From: Axinella damicornis
Taxonomy: Eukaryota > Porifera > Demospongiae > Axinellida > Axinellidae
Assembly: GCA_963931865.1 (NCBI GenBank)
Contig: OZ007516.1
Span: 8,611,615-8,675,614, forward strand
DNA: 64,000 nucleotides
Direction: 5' to 3'
Shown in pieces: positions 10,621 to 63,186 of this stretch (positions within the stretch are counted from its first letter, which is position 1; each line of letters opens with the position of its first letter). A program made the position numbers and the translations under genes. The notes beneath the pieces are model-generated. The model searched no databases, was not told the origin of the DNA, and worked only from the letters and a program-made list of their open reading frames with translations.

Positions 10621-11716
10621 TTAGAGGGAGTCACGGTTGTAGAAAGAACGTGACCGACGCCGGGAGGTGCGAAATTTGGCTCTCGCTTTTCTCGGGATTT
10701 TATGGCTTGTAAATATTGTCTGCGGAGACGCCTGTGGTGCCGAAGGTCGCGGTGGAGTGCTGCACACTGTGGGGAGGAGCCTGGTGAGGAGTGCCATACG
10801 GAAGGCTGAGTTCTGGCGAAGAGGTCGGAAGCAGGTGGGAACCAATTGGAATGGACCGCAAAAGACGAAGCAGCTGCTAATTGCCCTACTGCTTTCAGCT
10901 GGTGATATCCACTCCAACCCTGGTCCAACTGCTGAAGCTGTCTGTGACTTCCCCTGCGCAATATGTGGCCAATGTGTGAGTGACGCCTGATGCAGCCATA
11001 TGCTGTGATAAATGTGAGCAATGGACACATATCTGGTGTGGTGGCGGGGTCAGCATGGATGAGTACAACCGGACTCAGTGGTGAATTGTGGCAATGATGA
11101 TACCTGGTTCTGCCCCAGCTGCCTGGTTTCCGAACTGCCATATTTTGAGTTGAGCAGATTCAGCCACGCCAACTGTTCCTCATCGGCCCCCAGTCCTGGT
11201 TCAACCCCTAGACGGTTTCATGGTTGCAAGTCAGGCATGACTTGTATATGCCTGAACGCCAGAAGTATTGTCAACAAAACAATTGACTTGGCAGCAATGA
11301 TAGACACTTGTAACCCTGACATCCTGGCCATTACTGAAACCTTCTTAGGACCAGATATCACCGACAGTGAACTATTCCCGCGAAGCTACCAAGTGTTCAG
11401 GAAAGATCGCAACAGGCATGGAGGAGGTGTGCTGATGGCAGTTCGTGCTTCAATTCAGGAAACCCGTAGACTGGATCTGGAGGAAGGAAACTGTGAGCTC
11501 TTGTGGGCTGAGTTGACCCTTGCAGTTGGTAAACTACTTATTGGCATATACTACCGTCCACCTGGAAGTTCATCAGATGACCTTCAACACCTCCGCCGAT
11601 CCCTAACTGCTATCCCTATGACCCAACCATACATTGTGTGCGGTGACTTCAATGTGCCGAGCATCAACTGGGAAACCATCTTCCCAATTTCTAGCAGTAG
11701 GACAGCCCATGAACTG
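10621..11716 (+). pseudogene. LINE 5' part: 2A-like motif, PHD finger, endonuclease
   Basis: This is the start of a CR1/L2-type non-LTR retrotransposon. From 10667 a frame reaches LLIALLLSAGDIHSNPGP, a 2A-like signature preceded by a hydrophobic leader, as known in some invertebrate LINEs. A PHD-type finger follows (CAICGQC, then CDKCEQW, then WFCPSC), but it is broken by a stop near 10988, a frameshift, and another stop near 11081. From about 11230 an apurinic endonuclease domain is open: LNARSIVNK, ITETFLG, GGGVLMAV, GIYYRPPGS and CGDFNVPSINW. It is cut at 11716 by the Mutator-like element. The 2A-like motif has H where classical 2A has E. The copy is dead. Confidence 0.82.
11708..11716. 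repeat. Left target-site duplication CATGAACTG
   Basis: CATGAACTG stands immediately before the left terminus of the Mutator-like element and recurs exactly at 25861-25869 after the right terminus. Nine bases is the standard duplication length for Mutator-like transposons. Confidence 0.9.
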
Positions 11717-11818
11717 GGGCCTATGGAAAACACAGAAACGGAAAGCGGAAACGGAAACGGAAACGGAAAACGGAAACGGAAAACGGAAACGGAAACGGAA
11801 AACGGAAACGGAAAATTG
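11717..11818 (+). repeat. MULE left terminal inverted repeat
   Basis: About 102 bp. A unique head GGGCCTATGGAAAACACAG is followed by alternating GGAAAC and GGAAAAC units ending GGAAAATTG. The right copy is its reverse complement but about 19 bp shorter, consistent with loss or gain of repeat units by slippage. Confidence 0.9.
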
Positions 11819-11907
11819 TCACGCATGCGCAAAGTAAATTATGCCGATCACGCATGCGCAAAGTTTTAGATAATTTGCAGATCACCGCGTCGCGTCGAGA
11901 TCTCGAG

Positions 11908-26547: not shown

Positions 26548-27645
26548 CTGTTGGATGCAACCAGTGATTGCTCGCAAACCTTGGGAAATGGTAGCAGTTG
26601 ACATCTTGAAAGTGCCAATGTCAATATATATTGGTTGCACAAGATTACTTTTCCAAGTGGCCATTTGCCCGAGCAATTCCTGATCAAAAGGCTGACAGGA
26701 TTGTGGATATCCTGAGAGACGATCTTTTCACATTGGTGGGACCTCCACAGAAATTGCACTCAGACCAAGGCTGAAATTTCGAAAGTAGGATTCTTGGTGA
26801 CCTGTGCAGGGCTTTTGGCGTGAAGAAGTCCCGCACAACACCATATCACCCTATGGGCGATGGACTGGTGGAGAGGATGAATCGGTCACTTTTGAGTCTC
26901 CTTTGCGCCTTTGTTGAGAAGGAATACAGCTGGGAAGATCATCTCCAACTGCTCCTGTTCGCTTACAGGACAACAAAGCATTCTACAACAGGACTGTCCC
27001 CTTTTGAAGTTCTGTTTGGGTCTAATCCACCATCCCTGCAGATTCCAGACTTGACAACGTCAGTGATACCAGAACCTTGTGAGTACAGCCAGTGCCTCAA
27101 GCGGAAGCTCCTTGAGTTAAGAGAGATGGAAGAGGCAAACATAGTGGAGTCAGCAGAGCGTCAGCAACAATCCTATGAAGGCTGTGAATCACGTGCGACC
27201 CTTGAAGTGGGACAACAGGTCCTATTGGACAATCCAACCAAAGGGAAGCTGGAGCCTCGATGGACAGGACCGTGGACAGTTAGAGCCCTGAGGGGACCTT
27301 CCACTGTACTGTTGAGGATGGGGACTATGGAGCATGCTGTACACATCAACCGTGTTCGCCCCTTGCTCACAGACAGGTTGGAGGATCGCACTGAACCTGT
27401 TGCAGCAGACTGGACTCCTTCACTGTGAAAATGAACCTGAAAACCCCACCATGGGGACTGCACCTGTGTTTCAAGGTTGTTCTGCAGAAGCACTGGCCTC
27501 TTCGCCTGCGACCCCAGAAGCTGCTCAGCCACAAGCCAATCCCCCTCAAGGAACGATGGTGACCACTCGCAGGGGACGAACAGTTAAACCAGTGCAGTAT
27601 TATGGACATACCTGACTGAGCTGGACTAAGGGGGGAGGTAAGGTA
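26548..27645 (+). pseudogene. Ty3/Gypsy integrase fragment
   Basis: Remnant of the pol gene of an LTR retrotransposon. The integrase core is recognisable: PWEMVAVDIL with the first acidic residue, LHSDQG with the second, and GLVERMNRSLLSL with the Glu. TTKHSTTGLSPFEVLFG follows, then the C-terminal part (EPRWTGPWTVRAL, HINRVRPLL). A frameshift lies near 26640 and an in-frame TGA at about 26772, and the last part (RRGRTVKPVQYYG) is in another frame. Protease, reverse transcriptase and RNase H are absent. It is fused directly to the LINE linker. Confidence 0.85.
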
Positions 27646-33459: not shown

Positions 33460-36400
33460 ATGGCAAGCCCGAGTTCGATCTACATAAACGACTATGAGTT
33501 TGATGAAAAGCTGGAACGTGACCTTTTCCCAAGTCGCCTGGGTGAGAGTAGCTACCTGTATGTTTGCAATCTTGAAGGCTGCCGTTAGATGCAGTGGTAC
33601 GCATATTATGTTACAAGCCCGTATATTATAGCAAGGGCTTTGGTTGAGGGTCGCCCGATCGGCACCGTCCGCTTTACCGCGTAGTTTTACAGTGCAGGTC
33701 TTGTGATTTTTGTACAATGAGAACCCGGCCTCCGCCGATGCATTTTGCTAGTTTCCGGGCCGGGGCAAGATGGTAACTGTGAACGGAAAGATTAACTAAA
33801 AGTCTCTTGAGACCAGGAATCCGGGATGACTCGCAGAAGAAGCTGCACAGAAATTTTAACTCGGAGGACACCATAGCTACTATACCTTCCCTGGTAGCTA
33901 TATCATCATCGGGAGACCTAGCTACATGCATATCTTATTCTGTTGTAGGCACCTTGTGTGCATGCATGGTTGCAACAATGGGGTTGCAGCAATCACACTG
34001 AGTATGCACTAGGAACTTCGTATGCATGGTTAGTGGCTTTGGGTCCACTGAAAGTAGGGACGGAGGCAGCATTCATGTCAATCATGTGGAGCTAAATTGA
34101 TTTAGTGACCCTACTAGCTACCTTAGAAGTATAATTGAATTGAGTCACGGTTGATTGAACAAACTGACGTCAATAACCATTTTTTAATTGTCTTCTGGCT
34201 AAGAAAGGTTTATACATGTAAGCTATTGCAGGTTGGTAGTGCTATAGTTCAGTGACGCCTCAAGGAATTAAGGCGACCCCGAAGTGGGTTTAGACAAACT
34301 GTTTTTGCAGATTCTGATCAAACGGCAGTACACCATCAATGTATCCCGTACCTTCCCAGAGCATGCCTATCTGCCGGATTGACTGGAATATTGCGAAACG
34401 CTTGCTTCACATCCATTTTTGCTAGGAGAGCCCCCCTGGCAATGATGGACTCATATGCCATCAGTTCACCGATCCTGTGAGGCTGGTGGGAGGCCAAGGT
34501 GGCTACATACAAGTTGAAGCATTGCACCCATGTCGCCAGGTCCGGAATGATCTTCCGTGCATTCATCATGTCTGCTGCTTGTACCACCAGGACCTTGCCC
34601 TCAAGAGACTGGGGGACATTGCGGGCCTTCCCTTTTGCTGGGGGTAACTCTGCGAAGTCCATATATTCATTGGCCAGGATTTTGTTTACCAACTTCTTGG
34701 GCAGGGCTGGAAGTCCGGTCCCAGTGATGACCATCGCCTGCGTACTGGGCTCTGCTTCATCCTTTGACTTGCCCGTCCCACTCAGAGTTTCTGCCATCTT
34801 TCTGGCCGGAAATTCCTCCCCTGGCTCATCTTGGGTGCTGCTATGCACCTGCACCCCACTTTCCCGCAAACTGTTGGTGCCAGGCATGGCTCCCAGTGTA
34901 CCTGAAGCCAAAGCAGAGGGAAGGTGCTTTAACTACACTGTATGATTGCTAGCACCCCTCTCATTGATATTCCACTAGCTCTGTACCTCCTCAGTACTGG
35001 CAGTCTGGCACCCCCCTACAATGCATGTGGCCACTGCCCCAATTATATACTTGCACCCCACTTAGGCCCGTTGCACATCAAGCACCACTGCATGTCACCT
35101 GCCCGCACAGCTATATTTGGTGCCCCTACGCCAGCCAGCCTGATATTACAGCCCACTCCTCATGGCTGCTGTGCATCTGCTGGAAGGTTTCGGCAGGTGG
35201 GGCAGCTCCCCTCTTTGTGGCCACTGCACCACCATCCCACCTAACATTTCCAGCTTGTGCACCACCTGTCCCCATAGAACACCCAGTTGTTTGTGGCCAC
35301 TGCATGAGTAGAGGTTCTTTGTGGCCACTGCATGAGTAGAGGTTCTTTGTGGCCACTGCATGAGTAGAGGTTCTTTGTGGCCACTGCATGAGTAGAGGTT
35401 CTTTGTGGCCACTACACCACCTGTCGCATGAGGTGCTAAGTTCTTTGTAGCACCTACCCACCAGATATACCCGTGGCCACTGCACCACCTGCCCGCATGA
35501 CGTACCCAGCTCTTCGTGGCCACTGCACCACCTGCCCCAGGGGCGTCGGAAGCAATTTAGTGTTGGTGAGGTGATGGTTTGCGCGCGGAGCACGCGCGAA
35601 TTTTTTTACGTAGCATTAATCATTCATGAACAGTCGCGCACGTATTACGGTATAGCTGGGATTTGTAGATGGGAGAATTGTTGCTGTGTAGTCTGCGCTC
35701 GCAGAGTATGATGCCTCACAATAATTATTATGAACGTGTAAAGGCCATTGCTTATTCAGGCCAGAAAATTAAGAGTTCGGTTTGTGGTTCTGCGATCGTG
35801 CGACTACTGTACTATGAATTTTAAATAAGCACTTGGTCAAGCATTGGTCCGGCGGCCGCGGGACCTGCGGGACCGGCTCCGGCGCCCCTGTGCCCACATG
35901 ACATACCCATGCAGCTCTTCGTGGCCACTGTGCCACCTGCCACCTGACGTATCCTGCTCTTTTGTGGCCACTGCATCACCTGCACGTGTGAAGTGTTCTG
36001 CTCTTTGTAGCCAATGCACTGCCTGCCAGCATGAAGTCCCTAGCACTTAGTGGCCACTGCACCACCTGCCAGGTTCCATTTTGTTTTGCCTCTCCCATTC
36101 CTTTGTTCCTTAAAGTATCACACCAGAGCACGGAAGAGAAGGAATATAAGGGGGGGAGGGCTACTGACTGATGTGCTTACCTGAGCTCCCATCCCGCCCT
36201 GTGGCTGCTTCTCCGTCCGCACCGCGGCTGGTGCTGGCCTGCAAGATGCCATGGACTCTACGTATGCACCTTGGGCACAGCTTTGGACTCTGAACTTTCA
36301 TTGGCTCCACCCCCCACGCACCTCCGTCCGTGACTATTCTGTTAACTCCGTTTAATGGAATTAGACTGCATATAAACCTGACCTGTACATGAGAGGCACA

Positions 36401-39400
36401 TTGGGTGGTAACGTGAACATGAAACCCTTTTGGACACCTGTAGTAGCATGTGTATATAGCAGCGCCTGTGAAACTTGTGTGCTACAATGGCTTCATGTTC
36501 ATGTTAACATGCTCATTACTATTCATGACCTTCCACTCACATGATAGCAATTTTATTGCCTAGGTTACATAATCTCTAAGGGCTTCTTGCCGTTTAACTG
36601 ATAATCGCGGTGTAGACTTCAACTTCGGTGGCTATGAACTGTCGAACTGTGGCTAAGGGCATCATTGAGCCTCCACCTATCGTTATATGGCCGAGTTGTA
36701 CTCAAGCGCTCACCTTGGAACTCTCCTTTTTCTTGTCCCGTCGATGTCTGCCCTCCAGCAGGTAAGATAGGTACTGCACTGATGCCTCAAGCCTAAACTA
36801 GGCACTTTGAGTGCTACCAATGGCGTTCCATGGGCAAACAAGTTTGCCTATGCTGTCAGTACACAAAACGGTAAAAAAACAGTTAGTGCTTATACTTTAC
36901 TCTTGATCGGTAGGAGGAGCTTATGATTGACTACTGTGAGTCTGCCTCTTCATTACTGTGATTGCCATTATAATTAGCAGGGTTCACCTGTTTCAGTTAG
37001 CTTGTGAAATGGTGGTTAGATGTATAAATACGTCATTCGCGCTGAGTCGAAGTTTTGACAGGCGTATAAATATGTCCATGTGCTCCAAGAGTTAAGTACA
37101 TGTTTCATTGGCAGGAAGATGATCAACTAGAATACCGTAGTCGCGCGTTATTAGGCGCAACTCACTTATTGGCGCATATTTGCTGTTAGGTGCAGGTTCA
37201 ACTCTCGTCCCAGGTACTCGCTGTTAAGCGTTGCAATCTTTGTCCAGAAACTCTGCAATCCTACGGAGTGGAAAACAGCTACCATATAGCGCTTAAATTT
37301 CGCGGGTCTAAATTTTCGCGAATTTCGCGAATTACAGGTCATTCGCGAAATTATTTCAACGGAAATTTTGACACGTGTTGTGCGCCTACAGCTACATGGA
37401 CAGTATTCTAACGTACGCGCGCGACAGCTAGCTTGATGGCTCTGTTTGTGTACTTCAACAGGATGGACAGTAAAGTGTAAGCTTCGGATCCACATGGAGA
37501 GTTCTCCCAAGCAAGAGGTACCGTAGAGCGCTTACGGTACCCATCTGCATGACATGTGCGATATCTGCCAATACTGAAGCTGCCAGCTCGATCCGGCGAA
37601 ACGCCCAGGCAGGTATCTGAAAACGAACTCTGAGAGCGTCGAAGTGGGGAAGAGAGTGTCGCAGAATACAACGCACCGACGAAGTGGTCTGTGGTAGCTA
37701 GTTGAGTTCAGCGCGCACGGGAGTCTTCACGCAAGTGCAGTATATTACACCACACCCATTCTGTGGGCGTGGCGTTTTACCGCGAATTCGCGAAATTTTT
37801 TCAACGAAATGTTCTCGAAGAGCAATTTGCGAAAATTGAGACCCGCGAAATATAAGCGCCATACGGTATAATTTGAATTGAAGCGCACTTCCTATTCGAG
37901 GAATGTCGTTATTATATATTTGTTAATAGGTGCATCTCGTTTATAGGTGCATATTTCCTTCCTGTGGAGTTATAGGCGCATGTGCCTAATAACGCGCGAC
38001 TACGGTATCCTGATAAGTAGACCACAGCCCGAGGGGTGCAGTCTACTTATGCACTCTTGTACATGGGTGCATTAGTGACAGTTTTGACGTGAAGAGGAGG
38101 AGATTACTGAAGTGTGTAATTAGTTCATGGAGGCGACCTCATTACTTGCGATGTGAGGCAGCTCTTTGGTTTTGTAATCCACAGATGAAGCTGCAATGAT
38201 GTAGATAGTTCTTTGGTACCTACAGTGGTAGGGTAATTGAGTGTAGGTGGAGGCAGTCTTTGCCCACAAGCTCCAGCTATTCTCTACTACTACCTCCAGG
38301 CACCAACGATTTGTCGCTTGCACTGCAAGCGACAAACGCTGGGATGAGAAGCAACAAGCACTGGGGTGAGAAGGCCTGGGTACGAGGCTACGACTAGTAT
38401 TTCTGCAGTGCTTACCACTTTTCTCGCGAAGAGCCTTTAGTTTCTCTCTCAGAGTCGTCATGGTACTCGGTAGAATTGGTAGTATGAGATTGACAGATTG
38501 TTGAATAGATTGCACCTCGTGTCAAAACTGTTTGTTTATTGGACTACGATAGTGATATGTCTGTTTCCATTTTTACTTCCATTTAAGCGTTATTGTATTA
38601 TGCTTTGCGAGCGATCCAAATGTGCGGAGCATTCCGTGTTACGATCGTACTACAAGTACGGAACGTGAACATTTTATTGACAGCAACTGTATACTGAAAA
38701 AAGATCTGTAAGGGGGTGTATACTGCACTACTTTAATGCTATCACCCCTACCTTGTTTCCCTGCTTTTGCTGTTCTGCTATCCCTACATCTTTTTTAATG
38801 TTTTTTTATTGATGTCACTTTATAATTTCTTAGCAGTAGGTGCGCTGAACTAACAGAGCAGTGGCTTCCTTAGGTGATGCCAGCCTTGCCCTTGATTTAT
38901 TAACGTGCACAGAGTGCATGGCCTTGAGTTCTTTGTCTATCCCTACTTATAGAGTCTACCGACTCTAGGATACATTGTTTTCCAACTGGCCTTTTAGCTC
39001 AGTCTACCTTGCTTTTTTTCTTTTATATAGCTACAGTGGATGGATGTGACACCATAGCTGATGATGTTCTCAACAAGTTACTATCTCGTCACGACTTGGA
39101 TGCATTATTTGACGTGGAGAGACTTTTACCGCATATGGAGGAGCGACATATCGTCACATCCGATGATAAATATCGAATTGAACACCACTCATCACAAAAA
39201 GCAAAAGTTATAGAATTGATCAATGCTGTAAAAAACAAAGGACAGAGTAGAGCAAAATTAGTGCAGCTCTATGCAAGTGTCTATGATTCCCACGAAGGAG
39301 AACGTGGGCATGGGAAGCACTACGACACCCTCAGATGTTTATCACGAGAAGGTGTGGGAGGTAACCCTATGATACGATTGTGAGGATGAAACCTGTTTGT

Positions 39401-42400
39401 ATTAATTAACTCATTACCAACTACTGCAACAGCTTAAAGAAGCAGAAGAACATGTACTAAGTATTAACGCCTACCCCCTATATAAAGTCTTATGGGCTTA
39501 TGGGGATCCTCCGGGACCATTTGGCTGCTACAGGGTGCAATGGGTTTAACTTAACGCTATCAAAGCCAACATTCCATTATTTATGTAAGTAGCACATGGG
39601 AATATTACTTGTGACCTGATAAATAAAAATAAGACTTGCACTGATGCTGTTGTTCTTCTGCAGATTGTATACCTTGCAGGAACATTGCAAGGAATTCAAT
39701 GATAGCCTGTCCTACTGCATCTCTCAAAAAACCCAAGAAACGCCTTTACCCATCCTCAGCCCCATCACTTTCATATGTAAAATGTCGCATTTAGGGATGG
39801 GATGGGACTGGGGATGACTACCTTGTTCCAAGCCTTCAGTCTCTGATTGTTTACAGTGTCTAAACACAGAGGGGGAAGGCCTGGGAGAGCTGGTCATGTG
39901 CAGTGAAGTCTAGAAACTGGAAATGGTGCCTGACCATAATCATTCCATAATCAAGTTTGTCACATTCCCAAGTGCAATGAGTATGCATGTGCAAACCATT
40001 TTTACAAGATCCCCGTAAAACACAGTACTACAAGCGATTGAAGACTGCATGGAGGTGGAAACTACCTGGGAATGAGGCTAGGCTAATGGAGTTTCACCTT
40101 GTTTTTCTCTGCTTGTTTCTTCTCTGTAAATTAGCTATGAAGATATTTTCGTAAACTACATATACATGAAGATATCTCTGTGATATCTAATTTGCTTGAA
40201 TCTAGTTATGAATGTCCTGATAAAATGATTTAGTAATATAACTTCATACATGCAGCTTGGAATGCTTTGAAAATACCTGCTTGCCAGCAAGAGGAGTACC
40301 AAGGTATGACTGTCATATTAGTTCACAAAATAATTATGTGACAGATTTGAGAAAACGGACCACTTCTCATATTTTGAAATGTGCGTTTCTAAACGAAATG
40401 TGGGTCGTTTACAGAGGAGTATTTTTATGCTAAAAATCAAAACCCACTATCGTAGGATTAGAATTATAGAAATTTCAGGAAATGAATTTGTATCGCTAGA
40501 TTGGATGGACTGTTGTAATAGATACAAATTGTCGCACAGCGTTTGGAGAGAAATCGTTTGTGACCGTGCCGTGCCACGTAGGGTAGGTGTGGGTATTATG
40601 AGACAGCACCAATTATGGGTTTCATGCTTTACTACAATTTATAGACATCGTCACTTTGCCTGAACATTGTCAAATGTATCCTCTACTGTTTGATAGAATG
40701 AATGGTGCAAAGCATTTGGTATTCATGATTTGGACAGTATATAAAATTGTGATGAAATTTTATGGGTAGTTCTGATTGTCCTAATAAAAAATGCACTGCC
40801 AGAATACCAACAAGCATGCTTGCATGGAAATGGTTCTAGCAGAATCTTCTATGCTGGAAGGGTGTAGCTACCTAGCCAAATGATGATCAGGTATGAAACA
40901 TACAGCAAAAAACTGGGGTGTCTCATAATACATACCCTGTCTCATAATTGCCTGATTAACGTGTGAGATAAAAATGCAGCCAAATTGCAGTACATCAACA
41001 ACACTGAAACTTTGCCTACCATGGATTGTTAGTACAATGTATTATCTTGTTAAATCTATGCCACAGTACAATCACATCCTGTTGACAGCTTGTTGGTTAA
41101 CTTGAAATGGTTTTGTGTCTCATAATCGGCGGCTACCCTACTGCATTTCGAGCGTTTGCGACTGTTGTGGCTGCACTATTCCAGGAACTGGGTGTCTACT
41201 GCCATGCCATCATTGCCATGCGCTGCATTTCGAGCGATTGTGACTGTTATTCCAGGAACATGGACATCAACTGCCATAAGCGTTTGTGACTGTTATTCCA
41301 GGAACATGGACATGAACTGCCGTGCCACGCGGCGGCGTTAGTGACTACAGGAAATGGACACCCAAGGCGGCCATGCCACGAGTAGTCTCGCGGGCCAGCC
41401 TCTCGCCACACCCACTGCGGGGAGGGGAGAGTCTGGGAAAATTGCCATATGGCTCTCGTATTGCACGATCAGCAGTAGGGCAGCTGGCTAAGTAGGTGCG
41501 AACGTAATTGGAAGTGTGTGTAGCAAAAAACCATTGATGCTGCACCACATACTAGTGTACTGAAAGGCAACCGCCGCTCCATTGAATCCACTTAACACGC
41601 CAAGAAATTCCTGGCGTGTTAGATACGAGCCGATGATGGGAATTTTCCCAGACTCTCCCCTCCCCGCAGTGGGTGTGGGGAGAGGCTGGCCCGCGAGACT
41701 ATGCCACGAGCTGCATTTCGGCAGTGTGGCTATGGTAATTTCCAAGAAATGGGCATCATCAACATGGATAATACACACTAACGTTAGTGTGTATTATCCA
41801 TGATCATCAACCACGATGCCACGCGCTGAATTTTGTTTGTGACCAAGGGCTGACTGTTGTGCCACGCACTGCATTTCGCAGACTGACTATGAATATAGTG
41901 TACTTTGCAAATGTGTACTTGGAACTCATGTTGTTTTGATAAGTACATTTCCTGGTATGAGTACGTTGGAATCACATAATTAGTGTGCTGAGCTACCACT
42001 TAATTGGATTAGTGGGAATTCCGAATTTCTACAGCTAGATTAGATTTACCGTTTTATTAGCATAAATACAGTACTGTAGCAATTGTGTGGAGATGAAGCC
42101 TTTGGGCTGTAATGTCAGTTGCAGGGTTGAGTTCATGACATTGTCGTTTGTGCGGACTTTTTCAGAAAATGACTGACTTGAAGGTATGTACATGTAACTC
42201 TGGAACAGAGGGTCCATGGGGTTGCTATTTATTAACTTTAGTACTTGCACTGTACCAAGCATTGTCAAGATTGGTTGTGGAAATAATCAAAATTGAAATA
42301 TGCACAAAGTGGTCCAAATCCGGTCACATAATTTCATCTCCTGGTACCATTATTATCTGATGCGTATTGCAATTTTGCCATCCCAAATTAATATGCTGCC

Positions 42401-45400
42401 ATTACATCCTTACAGACCCTGATATAGTAATTGAAAAGGTGCTACACACATGTGATTCACGACCTCAAATGAAAACAGATGCTAGTAAAATCTGCAAGGA
42501 GTTTCGTGAGATGGGACCTGATTGTGGGATTGAAGGTCTAATCCGTGCTCTTCTACAAAGAGACGGCCTGGGACATCTAGCGTCAGGACTTTTTCCTATA
42601 TGTAAGTGCAAATTTCCTGATGCAGGTATAATGCTATATCACGTTTGTTTATGCACATTACTTCATTTATGCATAGGTCGCTCCAACCCTCCCTCAGTCT
42701 GGAATATATTTCAAAGACTTGGAGATACCTGGGCTGAGTTTGCACTTTACCTAGGCTACACAAAGGAACAAGTTGCTAGTATCACCAAACAGTCACCTCA
42801 TAATGTTGATCTCCAAATTCGATTGTTTTTGCGAGAGTTTCAACTTCCAGACATGGATTGCAAAACAAAGTCGATTCTTGTGAGAGCAATTCAAAATGCA
42901 ATCAAGTATGAGTATGACGGTAAGTGTGTTGGTTTATTGTTATAACACACTGCCTTTATTGGCCTTTCTCCATTATTTCAGTGTGTGATGTAACAGCTAT
43001 CAAAGAGCGAAGTAACAGGGAGAGTACACCCAAGGTGCAGTACTCGTTCTGCTAGTTTGATCACCTCGATTCAATTTTCCAATGATGTTTTCTCTACCAA
43101 TTAATTTTGTGAGTAATAATCCTTTCCCATCCTATAATTTGGTATAGGGAGGTATTCACCTGTGAGTGCGTGATATTTGTGAATAATCGCACAAGCCGCA
43201 GGCAGCTGGCCAAATAATTGCACGAGATGTTACTACTTTTCTCAGTGATGCTGTTGTGTGCAGAAGGCTTTAGGACGGAAGCATGGTGTTGTGGTACCAA
43301 GCATCCAGGATTCTAAATTAGCAGCACAGGGCTCTATGTACAAAGCAGCCATAAACGGTTAGCTAGCTAGTATGGCACAATGAAGCGTGCCACCATTTCT
43401 GTGACATTATGTCATCACTTGTCATGCGATTCTCACGGCATTTCTGCTCAGGAACAGAGTAACTGTCCTACGTAGTAAAATAACATGAGAGCTCACACCA
43501 CAGCTATTTTCAACCATTGCTAATAAAACAAGGCCTAGCCATGACACGGGGGCTCAACACTTGGGTGCATGGATCGGTTGGTACATATATACCACAGCTG
43601 CTTTAGTGAGTTGTACACTCACTAAGGCAGCAGCTCATGAGCTGCCTTATATATGCCCTTGGTGTTGCTGAGCAGTTATCTCAGGGAGGAGAAAACATGT
43701 TTCTCTCATCACTTAACTTCTTACCAGAACTCACACACATACTCACATCGTGTCATCCAGGCCACATAATTATTCAAATTTGTGTGAAATTGAAAGCAAC
43801 GTGTTGTCAAGATTCATACATAAATTTTTGATAGGAACTGGTAATTCCCTTTATCCCTTACTCAGGGCAATAAGAATCATGAATTATGTTCTTGATATGT
43901 CCCTGTAGGTTGCTGTGCAGAACAATTTTTACATTTTCAATGAAGCAAGAAAGCCTTTTGTAAGTTTTAGTTTGTGTGCATGACCGCCTGGCTTCTCAGA
44001 TCATTTTTGGGAAGAGCAGCCAATTTACACACCTGGTTAGGGAAATAATAGTGTGAAACTAGGAATGGGCATATGCACATAGTACGTTTCGAGCATAATT
44101 ACGTAATTGGAGTGGTCTTATGTAGTAGGCCAGAAGGTGTTGTAAGAAGAGGGCAAAGCATACCGTTGCTTGTAGTTAAGGTTGCGGGTTACAGTTTGCA
44201 ATTGCGCATGCGCGGCGTGCGCTTGCGGTTTACAGTCAACAGTGAAATGTGTGTGCGACTTTGGCGTCAGTTTTTTATCGCTGAACTTACATCTAACCGT
44301 ATATCAGACTGGATTTCAATTCTACGAAGAAAGGGGCAGGGCGGCTCGAAAAGTTTTACCGAGATAAACATCCTGTTCGTGAGATACTGTGCATTCTACT
44401 TGCCTGATCTGGTGAAAAGCGAATGGCTTTGTGGTATGAACGACCATCACTCGTTTTTCCAACGGCAGCGAAGCGAAGTCGCTCCGAGCCGCTCTCCAGT
44501 CAGTTGAAAACTTCCCATGGGTGCTGCCAAGCTGGCCTGTTAGCCCTTTCTGATTGCAAAATCTGACGCCAAAAATCGCCAACTCGACCTTGAACTTTGA
44601 TGCCACTGCCCGTGTTGGCATGTTGTACTCAGGTGCTAAGATCATACCAGCTAGAAGGTACTCATATTGCTGTTATACCTCGTTTTTGTTGCGTGTCTCT
44701 AGCTAGTTCCTGCACGGAGGGACAAAGGTAACTTGTACGTTATGTATATTTAATGAGCACACGGTATCCCGTAACCTTAACGGCTGAGAGCGAGATAATG
44801 CACGAGCCGAAGGTGAGTGCATTATCCGCCCGAGACCGTTAACTAGATTGCCTGAGTGTACTAAATATAGGTTAGACACTGAGACCAAGGGATCTACGCG
44901 ATTTAGAAACCCGAGGGCCCTGGGCTGTAGCGTCCCGAGCGCAGCGAGGGCGCTACTAAGGGCCCGAGGGTTTCTAAATCGCGTAGATCCCATTGGTCTC
45001 AGTGTCTAACCGATTTAGAGTATAGCAACGGTAACTACGCTAGCGCTTCAGTTGTCAACAAAATAACCTACGAGTCGGAGGTCCTTTTCGAGAAATAACA
45101 GCTGAGACTGGAAACGAGTACAAGGCAGATACTAGCACTGTGTGCCCTCGCTGCACTGCGCTCGGGACGCTACAGCCCAGGGCCCTCAGGTTTCTAGATC
45201 CCTTGGTCTAGAGTACAGCAACGGTAACTACGCTAGCGCTCCAGTTTTCAACAGAACAACTTACCATCGGATGTCCTTTTCGAAGACTACAACAGACTGG
45301 CTACGAGCAGCAGGTAAGCGCTGACAAGGCGCGCACGAGCAGTCATATGGCTCCACCCCTCAACTTAATTGGCTCCACCCCACCAGTGCCGTCATTTACC

Positions 45401-48400
45401 GCTTAGCTCCTCCTTCGAGCTGTCGTGTACTGATGTAGCCGTCCAACAAAGACAAACACAGAGAAGTACGCAGACATGTGCACTGCCAATAATTCTAAAG
45501 CATGCAGCTGCATGCTATAATTTTTATGTAGTTGCCATGGATTTCACGTTGGCAGTAAGCAATAATTGTGTATCCTGGGGGCTCAATAGAAAACCCCGTA
45601 CGAGGTTTTCTATTGAAGACGAGGTTTTCTATCAGATTTAGATACCTCGCAGTGAGTAATCTGATTGGTGGAATTGGTACAACTATACTCTAAACCCTGT
45701 AATGTACTGCAAACTGGTATCTAAACTACTTAGCACTACTCACTGACCCAAAACAGCCGTTAGTGTGCATTATCTAGATAATGCACATGTGATTTTATGT
45801 TCAGTCGTGTGATCGATTCTGAGGCATCTGATTTGTTGAGGGTCACGTGAGTAGCACAAAGTGAGGTAATAATGATCTCAGCACTGATGTAGTGGGTTGG
45901 ACCACTGCATGGCAGCCTTATACTGGGCTTGGAAGAGGCTGCCATTCTTTTAGTGTTGTTGCAATCCATGCACTACAGCTTGCGTGTGAAAGTTTTGGTT
46001 GGTAATCATGAGGCTATGTATGTAGATATGGTGGTGTCAAATTCCTCTAGACAAGATATAGCTAACACATATTATACCAAGAAGTACTGGCTCAAAGTGG
46101 ATACTAAATCTTACGTGGTGCATACAGTTAACATGGAAGGCGAATATGGCCTGTGATGTGCATTACGACAGCTCTCAATCGTGCTCTCTCCTACGTATAC
46201 CCTCCGGTGGCAAGGCACTCCTGAATTGAGCTAGAACAGCGACCTGCGATTGAAAGATTGAAGGATGTTTTCGTGTGGCTACCGTCGCACCAACCACGTC
46301 AAGTCAGAATGCTACCAGACTCTTCCGTTTGTTTATTGCACTCCTGGTAGGGGAAAAATTGTCCCGCTAATTAATCTAATTAATCTAAATAATAAACGTT
46401 TGACTACTTCGGAATGGCCTACAAAGATTCTGACTACACCGCCGCGATCGCTATGATGCAGTGACACAACCACATAATAATTGTGCTGAAACTCATCTTG
46501 GTGCCGGAGATACAAGCACTTTTGTCTCACCGTGGCCGCCATTGCTCGAGCGCTCTCTCCGACTTCCAGTGGCAGTACCGTTCTTAGGAAAGGCACACGA
46601 AGATTCTGACCACACGGCCGTGATCGCTGTCGTTCACTGATGCTTACATGCCAAAACTCACCATGCTGGCGAAGTTGTTAGTACTGTAATAAACTCTTAT
46701 CTTACTCCATTACTGACTTGACATCGCGATCGACGACTGAGCATGGTCCTCACGTGTCATGTGCGTTAATTGGAATGAGCTGCAATACCTAGGTTGCATG
46801 TCCAGCGAGTTGCAACCGGTTGCAACGCGGCTACCAGGAGTGCGGTTGCCCCTCGGTAATGTCAAGTAATAGTTGTACCATGGCTTGCTGGGATTTGGGG
46901 CAGTTTTATGTATTCCCAAGGGCGAAGCCCGAGGGAATACATAAAACTGCACGAAGGGTACAAATCTCGTACACCCTAGCGAAGCCATGGTACAGCTGAC
47001 TTGTACCATAGTGTCAATGATGAAAACCACAGTTGCCATGGAGCCCCCATGTACCCTAGGGTACATGGATGTACCCTGGCTTCAAAGGCACCACTTAGTG
47101 TACATGGGATTTGTCCACTGTGGTGGTGCCTTTCAAATGCCCATGCACTATGGTACAAGTGTGTTGCTCATGGCAGGTCGTGTCACCCCTCATCTCACAG
47201 ATGAAGGTCCAGTGTAGTAAAATAGAAAGCGTCTCACGCTCAACCATGTGACTACGAAGATGTCATTTGCACCCTCCCCCTTAAGCCTTACAATCATGTG
47301 TTTTGGTTACATAACTAAGTGCATGCGTAAACAGTGGAAGCCAGGCCCTTTTCTCCTCCCTCTCTCGGGCCGAGGAATGAGGCTAGACACACTATTAATT
47401 GCACGCATAATGCACGACAGTACCGAGTCGACCCTGCTACATTTTATGCCGGTGCTACAAACTACGTACTACAAACTTGAAAGTTGAGATCACCATGAGC
47501 GAATGGGCTCAGTATAGCCTAGCTATGTATACAACGAAATTAGCCGCATTCCCAGTCCCACACCCAGCTTTTCATTGCTGGCAGTATGGTAAGCGACGAA
47601 AAGCTGGGCGTGGGACTAGGAATGAGGCTACCACGAACTTGAAACTGCAGACTGCCAATGATGAATGACAATTGGCTACATCACAAACGTATGCTCAGGC
47701 CCCACCCCCAGCTTCCCGTATAAGCTGCGCCGCACCGCCTGGGCCTCCCAGCCTATGATCACTTAACAATGCAAATCACTCAGAGAATAATTATTGACAT
47801 GCAGTACATCAGTTTATCAGGCGAGCCCCACAACACCCTGCATTCTCCTAGTAAATAAAGTGAAGTGTGAAGAAAGCAAAGATTTAACAGGATCAACAGA
47901 AGGTTCCATGGCACTTTTCTGTGCTACCTCTCTCAGTTGACAACTTCAATATAGGAGATAGGGATTTGATACCATTGTGACAAACCAAAGGAGGTAGTGC
48001 AGTTATATAGAGGCTTGTATTGTTCGCAACAAAACTTCCACAAACAACATGTCCTGAAATCCATAAGCTATACACAGATAAGCTGTGGTGTTCTTGTGAA
48101 AACACAATTGACACTAATTGACACTGTGGTACAAGTCAGTTGTACCATGGCTTCTAGGGTGTATGAGATTTGTACCCTTCTCACAGTTTTGTGTAGCCTC
48201 GTTCCCAGGCTCCTCCCCCTGTGAACGCCGATGAAAAATACAGGGGGAGAGAGCGTGATACACTTTCACATGTGATGCGTGGCACGTCAACATCATTGCT
48301 ATACTTAACTTATCTGGTACATCACAACTGGAGCTTGCCGACTTTGTGGTAGCGAGAGATCGATGTAGAGAAGGTTATACGATGGCGACGACTGCGGAGA

Positions 48401-51400
48401 AAGTTACCTGGCAATACAGACACCCATGGATAGCGGTATAGTTCAGCATAAGCTACAAAATGCAACTTACTCGTTCCAGACTGTCCGGTGATGAGAATCT
48501 GTCTCCGAGGATTGATTGTAACTCTCGGTTCCATGCATGCTTCACAACTACAGCAGCTACTGTATGTCTGTGCCATGGCATCATGTGCGAAAGTGTACCA
48601 GGCCCTCCCCCTCCATATTTTTCTTCACTGTGTGCACAAGGGGGAGCCTGGGAGCGATGCTAGTTTTATGTATTCCCTTTGGTTTCGCCCTCGGGAATAC
48701 ATAAAACTGCACTCAGGGTACAAATCCCATACACCCTAGCAAGCCATGGAACAACTATTACATCAACAGTATAGCTTCATGGTATATTAATATTAGGAAG
48801 TGATCCGTAGTTACAGCGCATATCAAATTACATGGTATTTAGCCACTGTTACAGGTGAAAACAATTACTGTATCTGAAAAACTGCAATCATCACGTAATT
48901 AATTAGCTGAGCTCGCTTCGCTCGCTCAGCTACTTCCCCCCTCATTCGATTACGTGAGAAATCCGGCGCCGGACAGCTCTCTGTGCAGAGTTGCTGCTCC
49001 CCGAGTGCGTCCGTTCAACTGCTGCTCCCCGACGGTGCGTCCGCTTCAACTGCTGCTCCCCGACTGCGTCTGCTCCAGCTACTGCTCGCCGCTTGCGTTC
49101 GCTTCGGCTGCTGCTCCCTGATTGCGTCCGCTTCGACTGCTGCTCCCCGATTGCGACGCTTGTAGCCCCAGCTGTTCTGGAATATTCCATCCTATGCCCA
49201 TGCTAAGTTCTCGAGCATTCTTCACAGAGTTCAAGGTTCAAGTATGAAGGTCGCGTGTCACTAGTCGAGTCTAGTCCCGCCTCACAAACATCCCACTTCC
49301 GTCACGCACACACACACACGTTAATATATTGATGGTTATTCAATTACTATAGCAATGATTAAGTTAAGGTTAAGACCTCAAGGGTGAGGTTACTGACCAT
49401 AATTGGCTTGCTGAGTCAGTGCAAGAATCGAATTAGTAACATGTATCTGCTTGCAGGTGAATCATAATGAGTTTCTAAGCCTTTACATAATGCCTGTCTC
49501 AGATAAAATGAACCTCTTCACACCTCATTAATGTCAAAGCTTCCACCATATTAATTCTTCATGTATTCTTTCAACTCAGCTCATACTGATTAATTTCTTT
49601 CCATGAATGTATGTAGTTGGAGAGGAACAGACATTTGTCCCAAGGATACCGTTCAATCCAAAGGCAAGTACTTCTGAGTTCAGCATTTTATGCCTTCATC
49701 AATTTGGAAGTTAGTTTCTGTCTCCTTCGCATTGCTTAGGCCTCATCAATTGTTTACACTATACAGAAGTAATGGCATGCGGTGGGCAACTTTATTGGCC
49801 TATTACATATGCATGCACAATGCGGAAGGCCACTATAGCGGCCCAATACAACTAATGCATTTTAACGGTGACTCAACCTCAACTTCAGGATAAACTTTAC
49901 AGGACTTGCATGAGGGTAAGTTCCTGCACATTGAGTAGTAACAAGCATTGGTCGCACCTTTCCACCTGCATCACCATTCAGGAATGGATGGAAGGTGTGG
50001 TACTACTTCGTGAGAACCCTCACATGGGAGGTCAATTACGAACTCTACCACAGGCAGCAAACAAACCCCTGTTTGTATACTTAAGGCATGAGTTCTATCT
50101 TTGAAGTCAGCTTAGTATGAAGTATGAAAAAAATTGGCAATCGTTTCAAGTTTCTGGTGTATAGCTACAGAGAATACCTTGAAGCAAGTATTACTTGGCA
50201 GTAGTCAGCATTTTAGTCCAATGTGCATGCTATCTACACAATCAAGCCACTTAGCACTGCCCAGTGCTTCTGGCACACTTGTTTTACTTTGACTAGCAAA
50301 ATTTTACTCTTTTAATTGACAATTTCTGTGTAGGGACGTACCCACATGATGTAATTTCCACACTGAAGTGTTTTGATCTCAACAATTGGAAAGTACTAAC
50401 GAACATATTAGTTTCCCTCAGCTTCAGCTGGCAGCTGAAGATGAAGTCCAAGTCCTAATTATTCACGAGCAAATGTTGCACCATTTCGCAGTGTCCTAAC
50501 CTGATTCCACATTGTAAGCAGACCTGCAAGGTTCTTGCTTTGCAGTCAAGCAGAAGCATAATTTATGATAATATTAATTTATACTGTCAGTTTTCACTCG
50601 GCCAAACCTGCAAAATTTTAATCCATAATTTAATGTTTCTTACTGTATTTTAGAGCCAATCTGCCAAATTTAATTCGCCAAGTTTCCGGCAATACAGTAT
50701 TACCATCTGCAATATGAATTATAGTAATTGATACTACACAGTTCAGATAACCTGCCAATTTTTGGAGTATGGTGGCATGTATGAGTATTAATGGTTTCCC
50801 ATATACAGTACTAACACACATCACTGCATTTGGTGGTTCAATATGCTCCCGAGAGTTTTGTGTTTTATTTTACTTCTCTGAAATACTCTATAGTTCTCCT
50901 CTGAAGACTGTTCCACTTGCAATTGCTTGGAACCGGACTAAGCAATTTGAGGTGATGTCCTTTTAATTACTAGCAAGTACATAAATTAAGGGTGAGCTTG
51001 AGGGTGTCCCATGCTACTTGCAGTCTATGTAAACTATGGCAGTGAAACAGGTCCGGCAGACCTGGCAACCACCAATTCAATGTTTATTGTATGGCAGATG
51101 TGATCTCAGAATTCCTAAATTTATGTTAGGAGGGGGGGGGAGGTGGGGGAGGGGGTTAGGGCATGCCTCCCTACAAGGTTGTGCTTCACACACCAGTGTA
51201 CAGTGGAACTTGTCTATAGTGGTCACTGTTTAAGGTAGTGACCTCTCTATTTATGGTCACTACAGCTGGTCACCTTTGTAAAGCAGCCATCTGTCCATAA
51301 TGCTTGGCCAATACAATACAAATATACTGGTCTGGCAGGTGCCCACTATGGAGAGGTTCCTCCACTGTACTACCGCAAAACATTTCTGCGCTTTGCAAGA

Positions 51401-54400
51401 TACCATAAACTCGGGAGCATAAGTACCCATCAGGTATAAGTATCCTATGAATACAGGGCCGTAGCCGCCGGTGCGGTTGGTGCGGTTTCAACCGCACCAC
51501 TTTTGAGGGTTCCTAAAAAAAATTTTTTAACTAGTATTTTGTCAAAGACTTGGCGCAATTGCGCTTACGCGGCGCGCGCGGCAGACGAATTGCAGCCGGA
51601 CACCGCTTGATGATCGATACGAAGATGGCTGCGAAAAGCTCGAAGTTGAAGTCACTTCCTAGTCTTCCTGATGAGCCCCATCATCCCAAGAACTTCGAAT
51701 TTCCCAAATGAACGTTTGGTAAGGTCAAACCTGTGCTGTGCTCCGCGCAAAGCCAGTGGTTTACTAGCTGGCCAAAGATATCCATGCCGCCATTGCTCTA
51801 GCTAGCAAGCACTGTGGCCACAGTTGCAGATCTAGCTATATAGACCCCGGTCGCCACATTCTTACCCAAGAATTGCATCCGAAACCACCTCAGAAGGCCA
51901 GAAATCCCAAAATTTTCCTTTGGGGGGGGACCCCCAGACCCCCCTACAGCAGCGCGCTACGCACGCATTTTTTCGCCGCACCCCTAAGCCAACACAGCTG
52001 TTCAACCTCACCACTTCAGATCTCGCGGCTACGGCCCTGGAATATAAGTATACTGTCAAAAACCATTACTGCCCATTTCCTGAACAGAACTACCCATGCG
52101 AACATAATTACCCTATGAGCAATACTACCCTATTGCCCATGGGCCACGGAGTACTTGAAACAATACACGCAACTTTGTGATATAGTCCAGCCAACCACAG
52201 CATGGATACAAGGTTAGCCTAGCAACTATGCATGCTATTACAGAAACATGTGAGTATATATATGTAGCTATCATTTACAAAACGTGACTAACTACAACTG
52301 GTTAAACCTCACCAGAGATCATTTTTTGCCACCTGGAACTGAGCATTCGCTTACTTATGTGCACTTTTGCTAGCTTTAATACACAGCAGGTTTAAAGACC
52401 TTGTCGTATAATACCCATGATCATATGTACCCGTGCAATCAGCACCGTGCAAATGCGTAATTTGGAATAGATCTACCGGTAGTTATACTCCCTAGTTTAC
52501 GGTAATCAACTGCTTTACAGCCTCTGCATCGACGTATAGTGCGTTTGCCTAACAGAAGCTGAAGTGGTACTACCGTCGTCCCTGTGTGTATTATAGTTAT
52601 ACATTAAACTGTACGTACGTCATTTGCATGGACAAATTTTTTGCATGTTGAGTTACCTTGATAGGCTGTACATGTACGAACAGACGATCACATCGCGTGC
52701 AATCACTTTGACATTGTATTATGAGATCACCATCAGAACAATAAAGGGGTGTGTGGCAGAGATAACTGAAGAGTGAGAGAGAACCTCAGAGGTTTGCAGG
52801 GTCTGCTGATAGTAGAGGGGGTAGCTGCAAAAATATCTGAACAGCAGAAAGTTCAAGCACTCTGGATTGGGTTCCATTGGAAGACTGAATATTTTAGTTT
52901 TCTGCATTGATTATTTATCATGAGATCATTGTGGTTCAGGTATGTTTCACCCAAACGCAAGTCACTGAAAACAGTATACATGTTGGAGCTCACTCAGGCT
53001 AGCCCACGGTGTTCATGCATCTATTAGTGTGAACCTGCATTTATTATTGTATCATGTGCAGGGACTACCCACAAATGTTTTGGATCAACCTGTGTTGCAT
53101 CAAGCCTTGAGAAGATTCAGCACAACTTCACAAGTAAGTTTCAGTATTTGAAACAGGTCCTATAACTCTTCTTGTGGGTCTTTGAAGTGAGTTACTTGAT
53201 GCATGCAGGGTAACTCATCTTTAGATTGTCCATAACTGAATAGAAACAGTAACTATTTTGAATCCCAGCCTATCATACAAGCATCTGAGATGACGTTGTT
53301 AAATCTGCTGCGCCTAGGTGTTTAGTACGTTATTATATTATAGTGCAGCACCATGCATTGTTCAAGATAAAATACTGAATGTTTGGTAAGAAAAGTCAAA
53401 CTTTCTACCTTATTGCCGAGTGCATGGAGGATCTAATTCTCACTATATATGTGTGTATGTACATATCGGAACATGTCATGCTCAGGAATGTTGTGGGTTT
53501 CCTGCCGGCCAATTGAGTTTGATTTTGCTGCAAGGGCTCAACAGTACAAGAAGAACAACCTTGAGACTCAGATCAGTGGATGAGCATGCAGTGCCTCCAA
53601 GGGCTTGCAGAGCTGGAGCAGCTTCATATGGAGTCAAACAATCCAAGCACAGTCGACATCTGTTTATATCGCAACTCCTCTATAGCCTTGATCGCATAGC
53701 CAGAGGCTAGGTTACAAGCGAGTGGGGCCTTCAGGGCTTGCAGAGCTAGAGCAGTTACATGTGGAGTTGAACAGTGAGTGCAATCGACATGCTCCAGCTC
53801 CACAGTCAGAAATTCACACTAGCTAGATCGATCATAGTCATAAGCACATGATTAGGTTCGTATGCGGCGTGCACATGAGGCATGATCGATGCGGATACGT
53901 ATACTATATTGCTAGTAACTATATTACTATTAACCCTGATGCCTGGTATCAAGAGTTCATACCAATAAGAGTGTGCAACTGCCTGTGGGTTCCACTACCG
54001 CCATCTCGGCAGTATGACTAGACAATCAGTGGTGAAGTAGTAGCAGCTGGTGGGCAGCTGTATACTCCTTATGAATGAAATTGTGAGTACTATAGAGTTT
54101 ACACAGCCTAGGTACATTAGACCACACTGATTGCCTATGTCATACGGGAACCCATATGGCAGTTGCACACTCTTATTGTTATGAACCAGAGGAGGTTGGA
54201 TACATTTTCTGCACACGACGGAAATAAGTGGCGTGTTTTGCATTCCTAACCTCGCCGGCCTTGTTTCCAAGTCAATATGGCCTGGGACCGAGGGAAAACA
54301 TAAATTTCCAACGAGAAGTGCTGCAGTTGAGTAGGAGGGAGGTAGGAGTACGGTGAAGACGCTTCAGGTTGGGAAGGCTTCCAGGTGGAGTACTGGGAGT

Positions 54401-57400
54401 GTGGCTTCTCTGCCATCCCACGCAGCCGATCCCTCAAGAGACCATACAGCCTAAGCGACCCAGGGGTTGAACGGGGTTGATGGCAAATTTAGAATCTACT
54501 CTACTGGACCTTTCGAATAATTTCAAGTTTGTCGAGATACTCGTAAAGACTACCGAGAACACAATTCGCTATAGTAAACCTCCATATAAATTCATAGGTC
54601 ACATGACCGTGTCCAACCTCCTCTGGTTATGAACTCTTGCTGGTATGTATCACATCATCACTTTGGTGTGTGACTATCCATCCATGTTGATGTACTATAG
54701 AGCCAGGTCTACAGGCTGTTGCAGTCGATCAATTTCATGTTCTTGCGTGTCAGGCGCACCACCCATTACACTGAAATCCGATAATTACATTCCTCTGCAT
54801 GTCTGTCCATCCATGTCTGTCATGCATGCATAGGCCTGTATACTTGGACTCTCTGCATTCTGGGTCCCACCACACTGTTTTACCTCAGCAAATTATTTTA
54901 TGTTGACTAAACAGCCCCTTTCTGGGCTCTACAACCCTTTTGTATATATTATCACTGAGACTACCTGAATTTAGTTCTCATTGATCACCATGCAACTTGT
55001 GGTCAATGATGTATCTGCATGTGGGGCTACACATGTGGTTAGGTTTTCATGCTACATGCTACGAAACTTCTCTCTATGACTAATTTTGAACTCAGTACAG
55101 TTTACAAACGTTTGTTATTTTTTACTATATAGAGTTCATCTGAAGCAGATACAGCAGGTGAGACAGTACTACTAATCTCAGGAGAATCACATACAAAATC
55201 TCGTGTCAAGATACTATTAGTGCTTCAAACAAAACAGGAATTCAAGTACCTAGTTACAGTATTATTAATTTGCATTTCTGGGCACAGGCCTTGTCTGGCA
55301 TTTAAAATGCCTGCCCTGTCAGTATGAGTAGAATGCCATCCGTCAGTCTTGAGAGACTCAATGTAGTAAGCCCCCCCCCCCCCCCCCCCCTCCTTATTGG
55401 CCGTCAGAAACGGGGCAGCTGGGGCGGCCGTGGCCGTCCCACTTTCCGTCCTTTTATAAAATTTTTATGCATGCACTTGGACTTCGAACTTTGATCACAT
55501 GTGGTCACTCAGCAAGCTAGCTAGCTGTAGTCTCGTGCTCAGCCCCATCTACGCACGCCCCCACGGAGAGGGTCTAGTCTTTTGAGTGTGATTTCTTGTC
55601 ACTAACACCTTTCCCATCTGGAATTTGAGATGGCCGAAGAAATTGAGCAGCATGTGCGTAATTTACTACTAATTGTCGTGGATTACGGCACCGATCGATC
55701 AAGGAGTAAAAAACAGCTCAGTTTGAACAGCTCGTAATGAGGACTTACCTCGTTGGTGGTTCGTGACACCCCTTCGTGAGAAGGGGTGTCATGAACCACC
55801 AACGAGGTAAGTCCTCACTACGAGCTGTATAAGAACCTTTCAGCCATCTCCAACTTCGAAAAACAACGGTTTACGGCAATACCGGAATAACAAAGAAGTC
55901 CACCGCCCTTCTGTTACCAGCCGATGTTTTGGGGGTTAGGGGACGTCGCTGACTGCTTGAAGGTAGGGTTACACGACAAATAGTACAGAAAGGAGCGTTT
56001 ACCTTTACATTCTTAGCGCAGTCAGCGCTCCTACGCTGGACATGCCTCTGTGACAAGAAATGTAACTCAGACGTTCTCCCCCGGTGGGTGTGGACGTCTG
56101 GGAACGAGACTAAGCTTAGCTGTCAGTGTGATGATCTATATCTGTGGCTTCGTCAACAGCGATTGGTCAAGTGCCAACGCCAGTGATCAGTGGTGACAAG
56201 ACATACCAACCTTCTTCCTTGCATTCTCCTAAGCACGAGTTTTGGAAATACGGCAATCGTGAAGCGCTCATTTCAGCGGCAGTGGTTCGAGAGGCGGTCA
56301 CGGTCACAGGCCCGGGTAATAGCCTCGTACCCAGGCCCCACCCACAGCTTCCCATTGTGGCCCTGCCCATGGAGTTATGGCTGAGTCACACTTCCACGAG
56401 CAACGCTTTAGACACACTGGCTAGTTTTCATGGTAAGTTGTAGAACACTCTCTCTGGCATCCCAAGATTGCACCCAGAACGAGTAAAATTTCTCAGGGGG
56501 GCATGCCCCCCAGACCCTCTGCCTGCAGCACTTCAACAGCACTCACATCATTCAAGCTCTCACTGTTGGACCAACCAAAAATCACATCCTAAGGGCCAGT
56601 GGTAGAGCAGACCCCTGGGCCCCCTTGGGGCCCAGCTATATCCCTAGCCTAGATACGCCACTGGATGAACCCTATGTTGTCATACGTAATGGCTTGTATG
56701 TTGCCTCGAGGTCGGTTCACTTTAGTTTGCGTAACTAGCAATGAATACCATCAGACCTGCAGACTGGGAACGAGGCTAGCTTACAAGAATGTCTAGAATT
56801 GTTTACCTATACTCAAGGGTAGCAGAACCATGATGTCTACAGGTGCTATTACCCTTCTAAAGTTTATTGGGTGAGCGTCAGCAAGCCCCTTCTAGTGGTC
56901 ACAGTCAATGGCCACAGGCTATAGCATAATTAGATGATGGTGAGAGTGTTGGATCAACTGCTGACTTGTACGACCAACAGCATTACTGTACTTCATGTGG
57001 AAATTCCCATCAGGGATTTTAAAGGCCTGTGCAGGTTCCAAGTACTCTGGACTTCATTGGGAGGGGGCTACAACCCAGAACACTGTCAGAGTAAATGGCT
57101 GCAGAATAGATCTTCACAAAATGAAAAACACTGCTATATGTAGTTCACTTGTCTTTGGCAAGTCAGCCACTGCTCCTAGGCTGAGAGTGCAGCAGATACA
57201 ACGCGAGTTCGTTTCCTATCTTGTAGTCTAAAATGTTGAAAAGCCTACTATTGGATCGATCAAGACAGGAATTCCAGGAATTTAAGCACTCTGGAGTTGA
57301 TACCAAAGTTGTACGTACGCGTACGTCGATTAACACTCTTCTCTTCTTCTTTTCTGCAGAAAGTGAAAGGATCTCTGTAATTTCTGATCCTAGCTCAGAG

Positions 57401-63186: not shown

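Follow-up and report, generated by a model that had tools for sequence, protein, structure and literature searches.

The predicted exon chain

The window, meaning the whole 64,000-nucleotide stretch of Axinella damicornis DNA that was analyzed (C12:8611615-8675614; the searched genome comprises 226 Mb in 120 contigs), carries on its plus strand a predicted chain of exons encoding a CARD, two units that each place a conserved domain (DF) ahead of a death domain (DD), and a Gln-rich coiled coil. The features, in window coordinates, are as follows.

33460..33541 (+): candidate first coding exon, weak; ATG and phase-1 donor, codon score within the best 1.2% of the intronic null
39037..39360 (+): CARD exon, acceptor at 39031 or 39037, both phase 1; just under the Pfam CARD cut-off, supported by paralogs
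40256..40303 (+): candidate short linker exon, placed by phase consistency alone
42416..42601 (+): DF1 exon, unit 1; DF profile 63.6 bits, with the DF1 row itself in the profile
42677..42919 (+): DD1 exon, death domain of unit 1; Pfam Death 21.6 bits on its own, cut-off 22.6
42982-43034 and 43264-43357 (+): two candidate exons after DD1; phase-consistent, could equally end a first gene
49617..49663 (+): candidate bridging exon with a GC donor; may just as well begin a gene, with the ATG at 49607
53062..53133 (+): candidate bridging exon, weak; phase-consistent, codon score no better than null
55133..55157 (+): possible bridging exon of 25 bases; good splice-site scores, too short for assessment
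57360..57434 (+): Ser/Glu-rich exon ahead of DF2; acceptor score 13.8, codon score within the best 0.8% of the null
58652..58882 (+): DF2 exon, unit 2, alternative start 58577, both phase 1; phmmer L024 1e-12, L029 2.9e-10
60084..60320 (+): DD2 exon, death domain of unit 2; phmmer L024 5.7e-16
60402-60487, 61417-61566 and 62062-62161 (+): three phase-consistent exons with no assigned content
62354..62656 (+): Gln-rich heptad coiled coil; heptad pattern in frame
62981..63186 (+): basic Ser/Pro-rich exon with an SRIP motif; codon score no better than null
64772-64884, 64958-65110, 66378-66593 and 66703-67011: four exons past the window (in L036), for an uncharacterized domain and a canonical death domain

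An earlier note on this DNA had joined 19 exons into a product of 889 residues. When the chain from 33460 to 63186 was rebuilt, the phases were consistent and a single stop closed the frame, although we obtained 18 exons and 880 residues; a small exon or an exon boundary differs. None of the 22 candidate exons (18 in the chain and 4 past the window) overlaps the repeats found among the fetched loci. Splice sites were scored with consensus matrices. Codon usage was taken as a hint only, because the score separates poorly: the known CARD exon and the DD2 exon both fall below zero. For the small exons the codon scores were mixed, some favorable and those of 53062-53133 and 62981-63186 not; the three exons with no assigned content reached the top 0.1% (60402-60487), under 0.1% (61417-61566), and 11% (62062-62161) of the null. 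Relatives of the first exon were sought near the CARDs of the paralogs, where none was found, and the small exons at 40256-40303 and 49617-57434 had no convincing relative in the fetched paralog loci. A protein-database search with the 880-residue model returned nothing at E <= 0.001 among the 7,998 candidates scored, and a search of phage DNA gave zero matches. Single-exon profiles worked where the whole model did not, perhaps because the database stores such exons as short proteins.

The surrounding DNA contains several other elements. Within the first intron, 34339-34932 on the minus strand is a 198-aa open frame, without a Pfam match, that looks by eye like a retroelement fragment. Transposable-element pieces lie at 11063-11866, 22587-25082, and 26775-27425, with an endonuclease domain at 56.3 bits and MULE-like transposase and integrase-like matches below cut-off. 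A duplicated block flanks the death-domain locus on both sides (window 2179-7208 and L036 3547-10000, that is, window 67547-74000), matching at 95.8% over 4.2 kb and at 79% over 0.9 kb, and carries MFS transporter exons (Pfam MFS_1, window 5811-6200).

Domain assignments and the paralogous family

A genome search with unit 1 as query returned ten matches, of which three lie inside the window. The fetched paralog set (n = 7) consisted of the 20-kb surroundings of six loci on a different chromosome, C8, and the whole of C96, a small contig. At each of the seven loci, a CARD-like exon, DF, and DD follow one another on the same strand, and each stretch holds one DF-DD unit. Most CARD, DF, and DD exons start in phase 1, as judged by eye. 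At the 10985k locus the DD is spread over two open frames, and an eighth locus, C8:10751k, with a CARD and part of a DF, lies outside the fetched set. Our CARD profile includes two of the seven paralog CARDs (10734k and 10985k); those outside it matched at E values from 3e-45 (10702k, a near-copy of 10734k) to 4.4e-4 (11099k). All seven loci are included in the DF profile, and a single-sequence search with DF2 reached five loci at E <= 2.1e-4, with weak matches to 10734k (0.035 to 0.41) and 10702k (0.057). Contigs of 59,819, 568,598, and 221,492 bases turn up whether the database is searched for DF or for CARD proteins, which suggests that the CARD-DF pair is linked in other contigs too.

The CARD proposed in the earlier note falls just short of Pfam's own standard. 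Against Pfam CARD (PF00619) the window exon scored 23.3 bits, below the curated cut-off of 23.9, and CARD was absent from the matches listed in a Pfam scan of the whole 880-residue model. Across the family, two of eight CARD exons matched Pfam CARD at E <= 1 (best, 6.6e-5) and six did not match, and 2 of 36 database relatives carried a precomputed CARD label. Among solved structures, the CARD profile reached the CARDs of Apaf-1 (0.0064) and RAIDD (0.067); the CARD of CARD11 was a weak match to CARD profiles, at 0.066 in one search and 0.58 in another. TAL-effector and designed helical-repeat chains outscored every CARD in these structure searches and were judged spurious. Backed by its relatives, the window exon is supported as a predicted CARD. 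One database protein, P0045, is identical to the window CARD and enters the counts for two public contigs; for both P0045 and P0040 the listing gives the window as the encoding DNA.

The assignment of two death domains, also made in the earlier note, is firm at the level of sequence comparison: Pfam Death (PF00531) matched the 880-residue model at 33.9 bits (cut-off, 22.6) over two stretches. Scored singly against the same cut-off of 22.6, the open reading frames with the DD exons reached 19.1 and 19.3 (DD2) bits. phmmer found relatives of DD1 at the seven fetched loci (E <= 3e-6), and seven of the eight members of the DD alignment matched Pfam Death at E <= 1 (best, 1.3e-8). When the DD profile was compared with solved structures, FADD came out on top, followed by RIPK1, RAIDD (CRADD, 0.0031), ankyrin, and PIDD, at E values of 0.0009 to 0.01. 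A structure search with unit 1 gave weak matches to RAIDD and PIDD (0.11 and 0.68); one with unit 2 retrieved only spike-protein matches (E 1.8), which were set aside as spurious. Single-sequence folding of 42361-42942 was poor (pLDDT, 40.7). The 75 bases between DF1 and DD1 contain no stop in the window, and we read them as an intron, given that the ends of the two exons agree with those of the paralogs and that a near-copy of DF1 in the database (P0035) breaks off inside them.

The domain ahead of each DD, which the earlier note had described as a death-fold partner, is by sequence comparison a conserved, unnamed domain covered by no Pfam family. It spans about 75 to 85 residues with a C-terminal motif like LVEALxTxxGLGxxVS, and weak matches to Death were obtained for 4 of its 27 members (best, 0.11). 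At E <= 0.1 the DF profile retrieved 40 database proteins. Of these, 37 reached E <= 3.6e-11 and include P0005 and P0035, near-copies of DF2 and DF1 in the window; the remaining three include P0040, which is the window itself. By phmmer alone, DF1 matched weakly (0.0029 to 0.08). It is about 16 residues shorter internally than DF2, a loss that only P0035 shares in the DF alignment, whose 27 rows come from the window and from database proteins. For DF2 there are two candidate starts, 58652 and about 58577: the first matches the DF start in five of the seven fetched paralogs (by eye), although the acceptor at 58577 scores 9.1 versus 3.2. The fold itself is probably that of the death superfamily, a putative assignment. 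When the DF profile was run against a 74-kb six-frame translation, the canonical death domain at 66703-67008 ranked first apart from self matches, in register (E 0.096). A structure model of DF2 and DF1 reached a pLDDT of 56.7 with no structural match, DF profiles retrieved no death-fold chain among solved structures, and a comparison of the DF and DD profiles gave no convincing alignment and found no relation.

In the tree, unit 2 groups with C8:10985k and C8:11099k (support, 95/97), and unit 1 lies elsewhere, on the longest end branch (1.1); the program warns of long branches. A recent tandem duplication giving rise to units 1 and 2 does not fit this tree. Two DF-DD units are present as the earlier note had drawn them, but "tandem repeats" is an imprecise term for units from different branches.

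That note's further suggestion, a lineage-expanded CARD/death-domain adaptor, is supported by the seven fetched CARD-DF-DD paralogs and by the large CARD and Death repertoire of the genome. We counted at least 43 CARD matches, 37 caspase matches, and at least 150 Death matches, the last figure being all of the 150 scored among 980 candidates. For the sponge Dysidea avara, PMC12909245 gives 39 CARD genes and 128 DEATH genes. Separately, contig C77 (G000:C77:21702-72733), which is small, holds a tandem caspase array of nine caspase-domain matches, all on the plus strand. Past the DD of the 10702k paralog by 4.5 kb lies a Pfam Ank match (40.7 bits; L021 5216-5590, minus strand) that would belong to the same gene only by inference; with it, the family may have variable C termini.

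Gene boundaries between 43.4 and 67 kb

Because the two units come from different family branches and there is one CARD, unit 2 may share that CARD or may be part of a separate gene. We lean slightly toward either two genes or a fused gene longer than the one drawn. There is nearly an even chance that two neighboring genes lie here. The first would encode CARD-DF-DD and end near 43.4 kb; the second, beginning near 49.6 kb or farther on, would encode DF-DD and the coiled coil and have lost its CARD. Each product would be a family adaptor. An in-frame TAG at 43360-43362, an AATAAA at 43522, and an ATG at 49607 in frame with the exon at 49617 all fit such a division. The polyadenylation signal is weak evidence, since 34 AATAAA or ATTAAA hexamers occur on the plus strand in 64 kb and one within 160 bases of the stop means little. 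The single DF-DD unit at all seven fetched paralogs, the separate branches of the tree, and the brevity of the bridging exons (47, 72, 25, and 75 bases, with the 53062 exon no better than null) argue in the same direction. Yet the bridge from 43.4 to 58.6 kb is phase-consistent, and there is only one CARD, whereas the nearest relatives of unit 2 have a CARD-like exon of their own; a search of the interval from 43.4 to 58.6 kb detected no second CARD, also when the CARD profile was widened.

The earlier note's single continuous product is a putative one, with the phase-consistent bridge in its favor and the stop at 43360, the ATG at 49607, and a possible run-on to 67011 against it. Ending that product at 63186, as the 889-residue drawing did, appears unlikely. 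The chain is consistent in phase and none of its 18 exons overlaps a repeat, but the codon score of the last exon is no better than null, the stop sits in a 33-base tandem repeat (about two repeats at 63169-63232), the start exon and the bridging exons are unsupported, and DF2 has two candidate starts.

Upstream of that stop, the heptad coiled coil claimed in the earlier note looks real in the drawn frame: 10 of its 11 repeat units keep M, L, I, or V at the same place with differing codons. A match to the coiled coil and its basic tail elsewhere in the genome (G000:C4:20283085-20283477, minus strand; E 2.3e-7) contains two stops and may be low complexity.

Downstream, the chain could run past the window as one gene encoding CARD-DF-DD-DF-DD-coiled coil, the uncharacterized domain, and a canonical C-terminal death domain, with its stop at 67009-67011 (C12:8678623-8678625). 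We regard this as a serious possibility that falls short of an even chance. The open reading frame at 66703-67008 matches Pfam Death at 42.5 bits, the four exons are in compatible phase, and of four joins tested from the coiled-coil exon or the last exon, three read through as far as 67009-67011. The exon at 64772 is entered in phase 1, its open frame has no upstream ATG, and at 11099k an SRIP linker and then a canonical death domain likewise follow, about 9 kb past the DD. Against this extension, phase-1 donors that keep the SRIP motif score 0.0 or less or give a stop, repeat occupies much of the DNA before the added exons (63272-63653 and 63750-64371), the middle domain has no relative that was found in the genome, and that the 11099k death domain shares one gene with its CARD is itself a presumption.

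The SRIP motif recurs ahead of the death domain in the death-domain exons of L027 and L032, both of which lie upstream of a CARD. SxIP-type motifs bind the microtubule-end protein EB1. Compared with shuffled sequences, exon 62981-63186 and the linkers showed a modest excess of SxIP (P = 0.032, 0.0026, 0.054, and 0.048), with the motif chosen post hoc and L027 and L032 being near-copies in this comparison. It is improbable, though conceivable, that a single product combines the CARD, two DF-DD pairs of different ancestry, the coiled coil, the SxIP-type motif, and the C-terminal canonical death domain as a multivalent death-fold scaffold at microtubule tips, built on an undescribed death-superfamily domain.

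Least plausible of all is that the locus is a copy of a gene from the C8 cluster, in decay and without a functional product. The loss of about 16 residues from DF1 and the long end branch of unit 1 would fit decay, but the domain exons remain open. P0035 retains all 62 of the 62 DF1 residues, its frame departing from the window just before and just after the exon and its intronic codons differing, and P0005 keeps 75 of the 77 residues of DF2, a difference of 2. The 221,492-base contig carries P0005, P0035, and P0045. This agreement, together with that of P0045, argues against decay of the DF1, DF2, and CARD exons.

A predicted RAIDD-like adaptor

On balance, and by a modest degree, we favor the reading that the locus belongs to the CARD-like/DF/DD family and that its product is a RAIDD-like adaptor, with predicted input through the DD and predicted output through the CARD. 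An upstream death-domain protein, once activated, would be bound by the DD, and a CARD-bearing effector would be recruited by the CARD. The coiled coil may hold several copies together so that their CARDs seed assembly, and DF may add a second helical contact beside each DD. Such an adaptor would pass on cell-death or immune signals.

Downstream of the 11099k paralog lies a death-domain exon and, about 2.7 kb beyond it on the same strand, a caspase open reading frame (111 bits; L040 2356-3246, minus strand; C8:11086356-11087246) with SGHG and DACRG motifs. This frame is about 14 kb away from the CARD-like exon of the paralog, which would place an effector close at hand there. Within 50 kb of the 37 caspase matches, the genome CARD search placed no Pfam CARD match.

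RAIDD, or CRADD, is the adaptor of the PIDDosome; it binds PIDD through its DD and caspase-2 through its CARD. By predicted domain order the locus most resembles RAIDD with an added domain. As in RAIDD, a CARD, here a predicted one below Pfam's cut-off, precedes a death domain, and both profiles from the locus reach RAIDD structures (CARD 0.067, DD 0.0031). RAIDD has only these two domains, whereas the window locus inserts DF between them and, in the drawn model, adds a second DF-DD unit and the coiled coil; moreover, FADD (for the DD) and Apaf-1 (for the CARD) score better than RAIDD against the window profiles.

Other known systems share parts of this arrangement. Proteins of the sponge Amphimedon, as described in PMC8195603, are likewise lineage-expanded and begin with death-superfamily domains (one to three death-like domains), followed by TRADD-N and a variable C terminus, to which the ankyrin repeat near the 10702k paralog may correspond. 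Searching the genome for TRADD-N (PF13820 and PF20694) gave zero matches, and control genomes were equally silent. The CARD-coiled-coil family, CARD9/10/11/14 (PMC5978004), resembles the drawn product in joining a CARD and a coiled coil; in CARD9/11, however, the coiled coil directly follows the CARD, whereas in the drawn model about 575 residues with the DF-DD units intervene. Sponge NLRC and NLRD receptors, described in PMC12909245, also have an N-terminal CARD or death domain and form large expansions. Unlike an NLR, the 880-residue model gave no Pfam match to NACHT or LRR at E <= 1. A limited literature search brought up no description of a CARD-DF-DD architecture.

Death-domain repertoires are large in sponges and other early animals, and the adaptors among them are mostly without assignment. 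The conserved CARD-DF-DD triad, with its non-Pfam domain, offers a testable module among them. It raises the question of whether RAIDD-like bridging, with death-domain input and CARD output, may have arisen separately in this lineage, and of what DF contributes beside each death domain.
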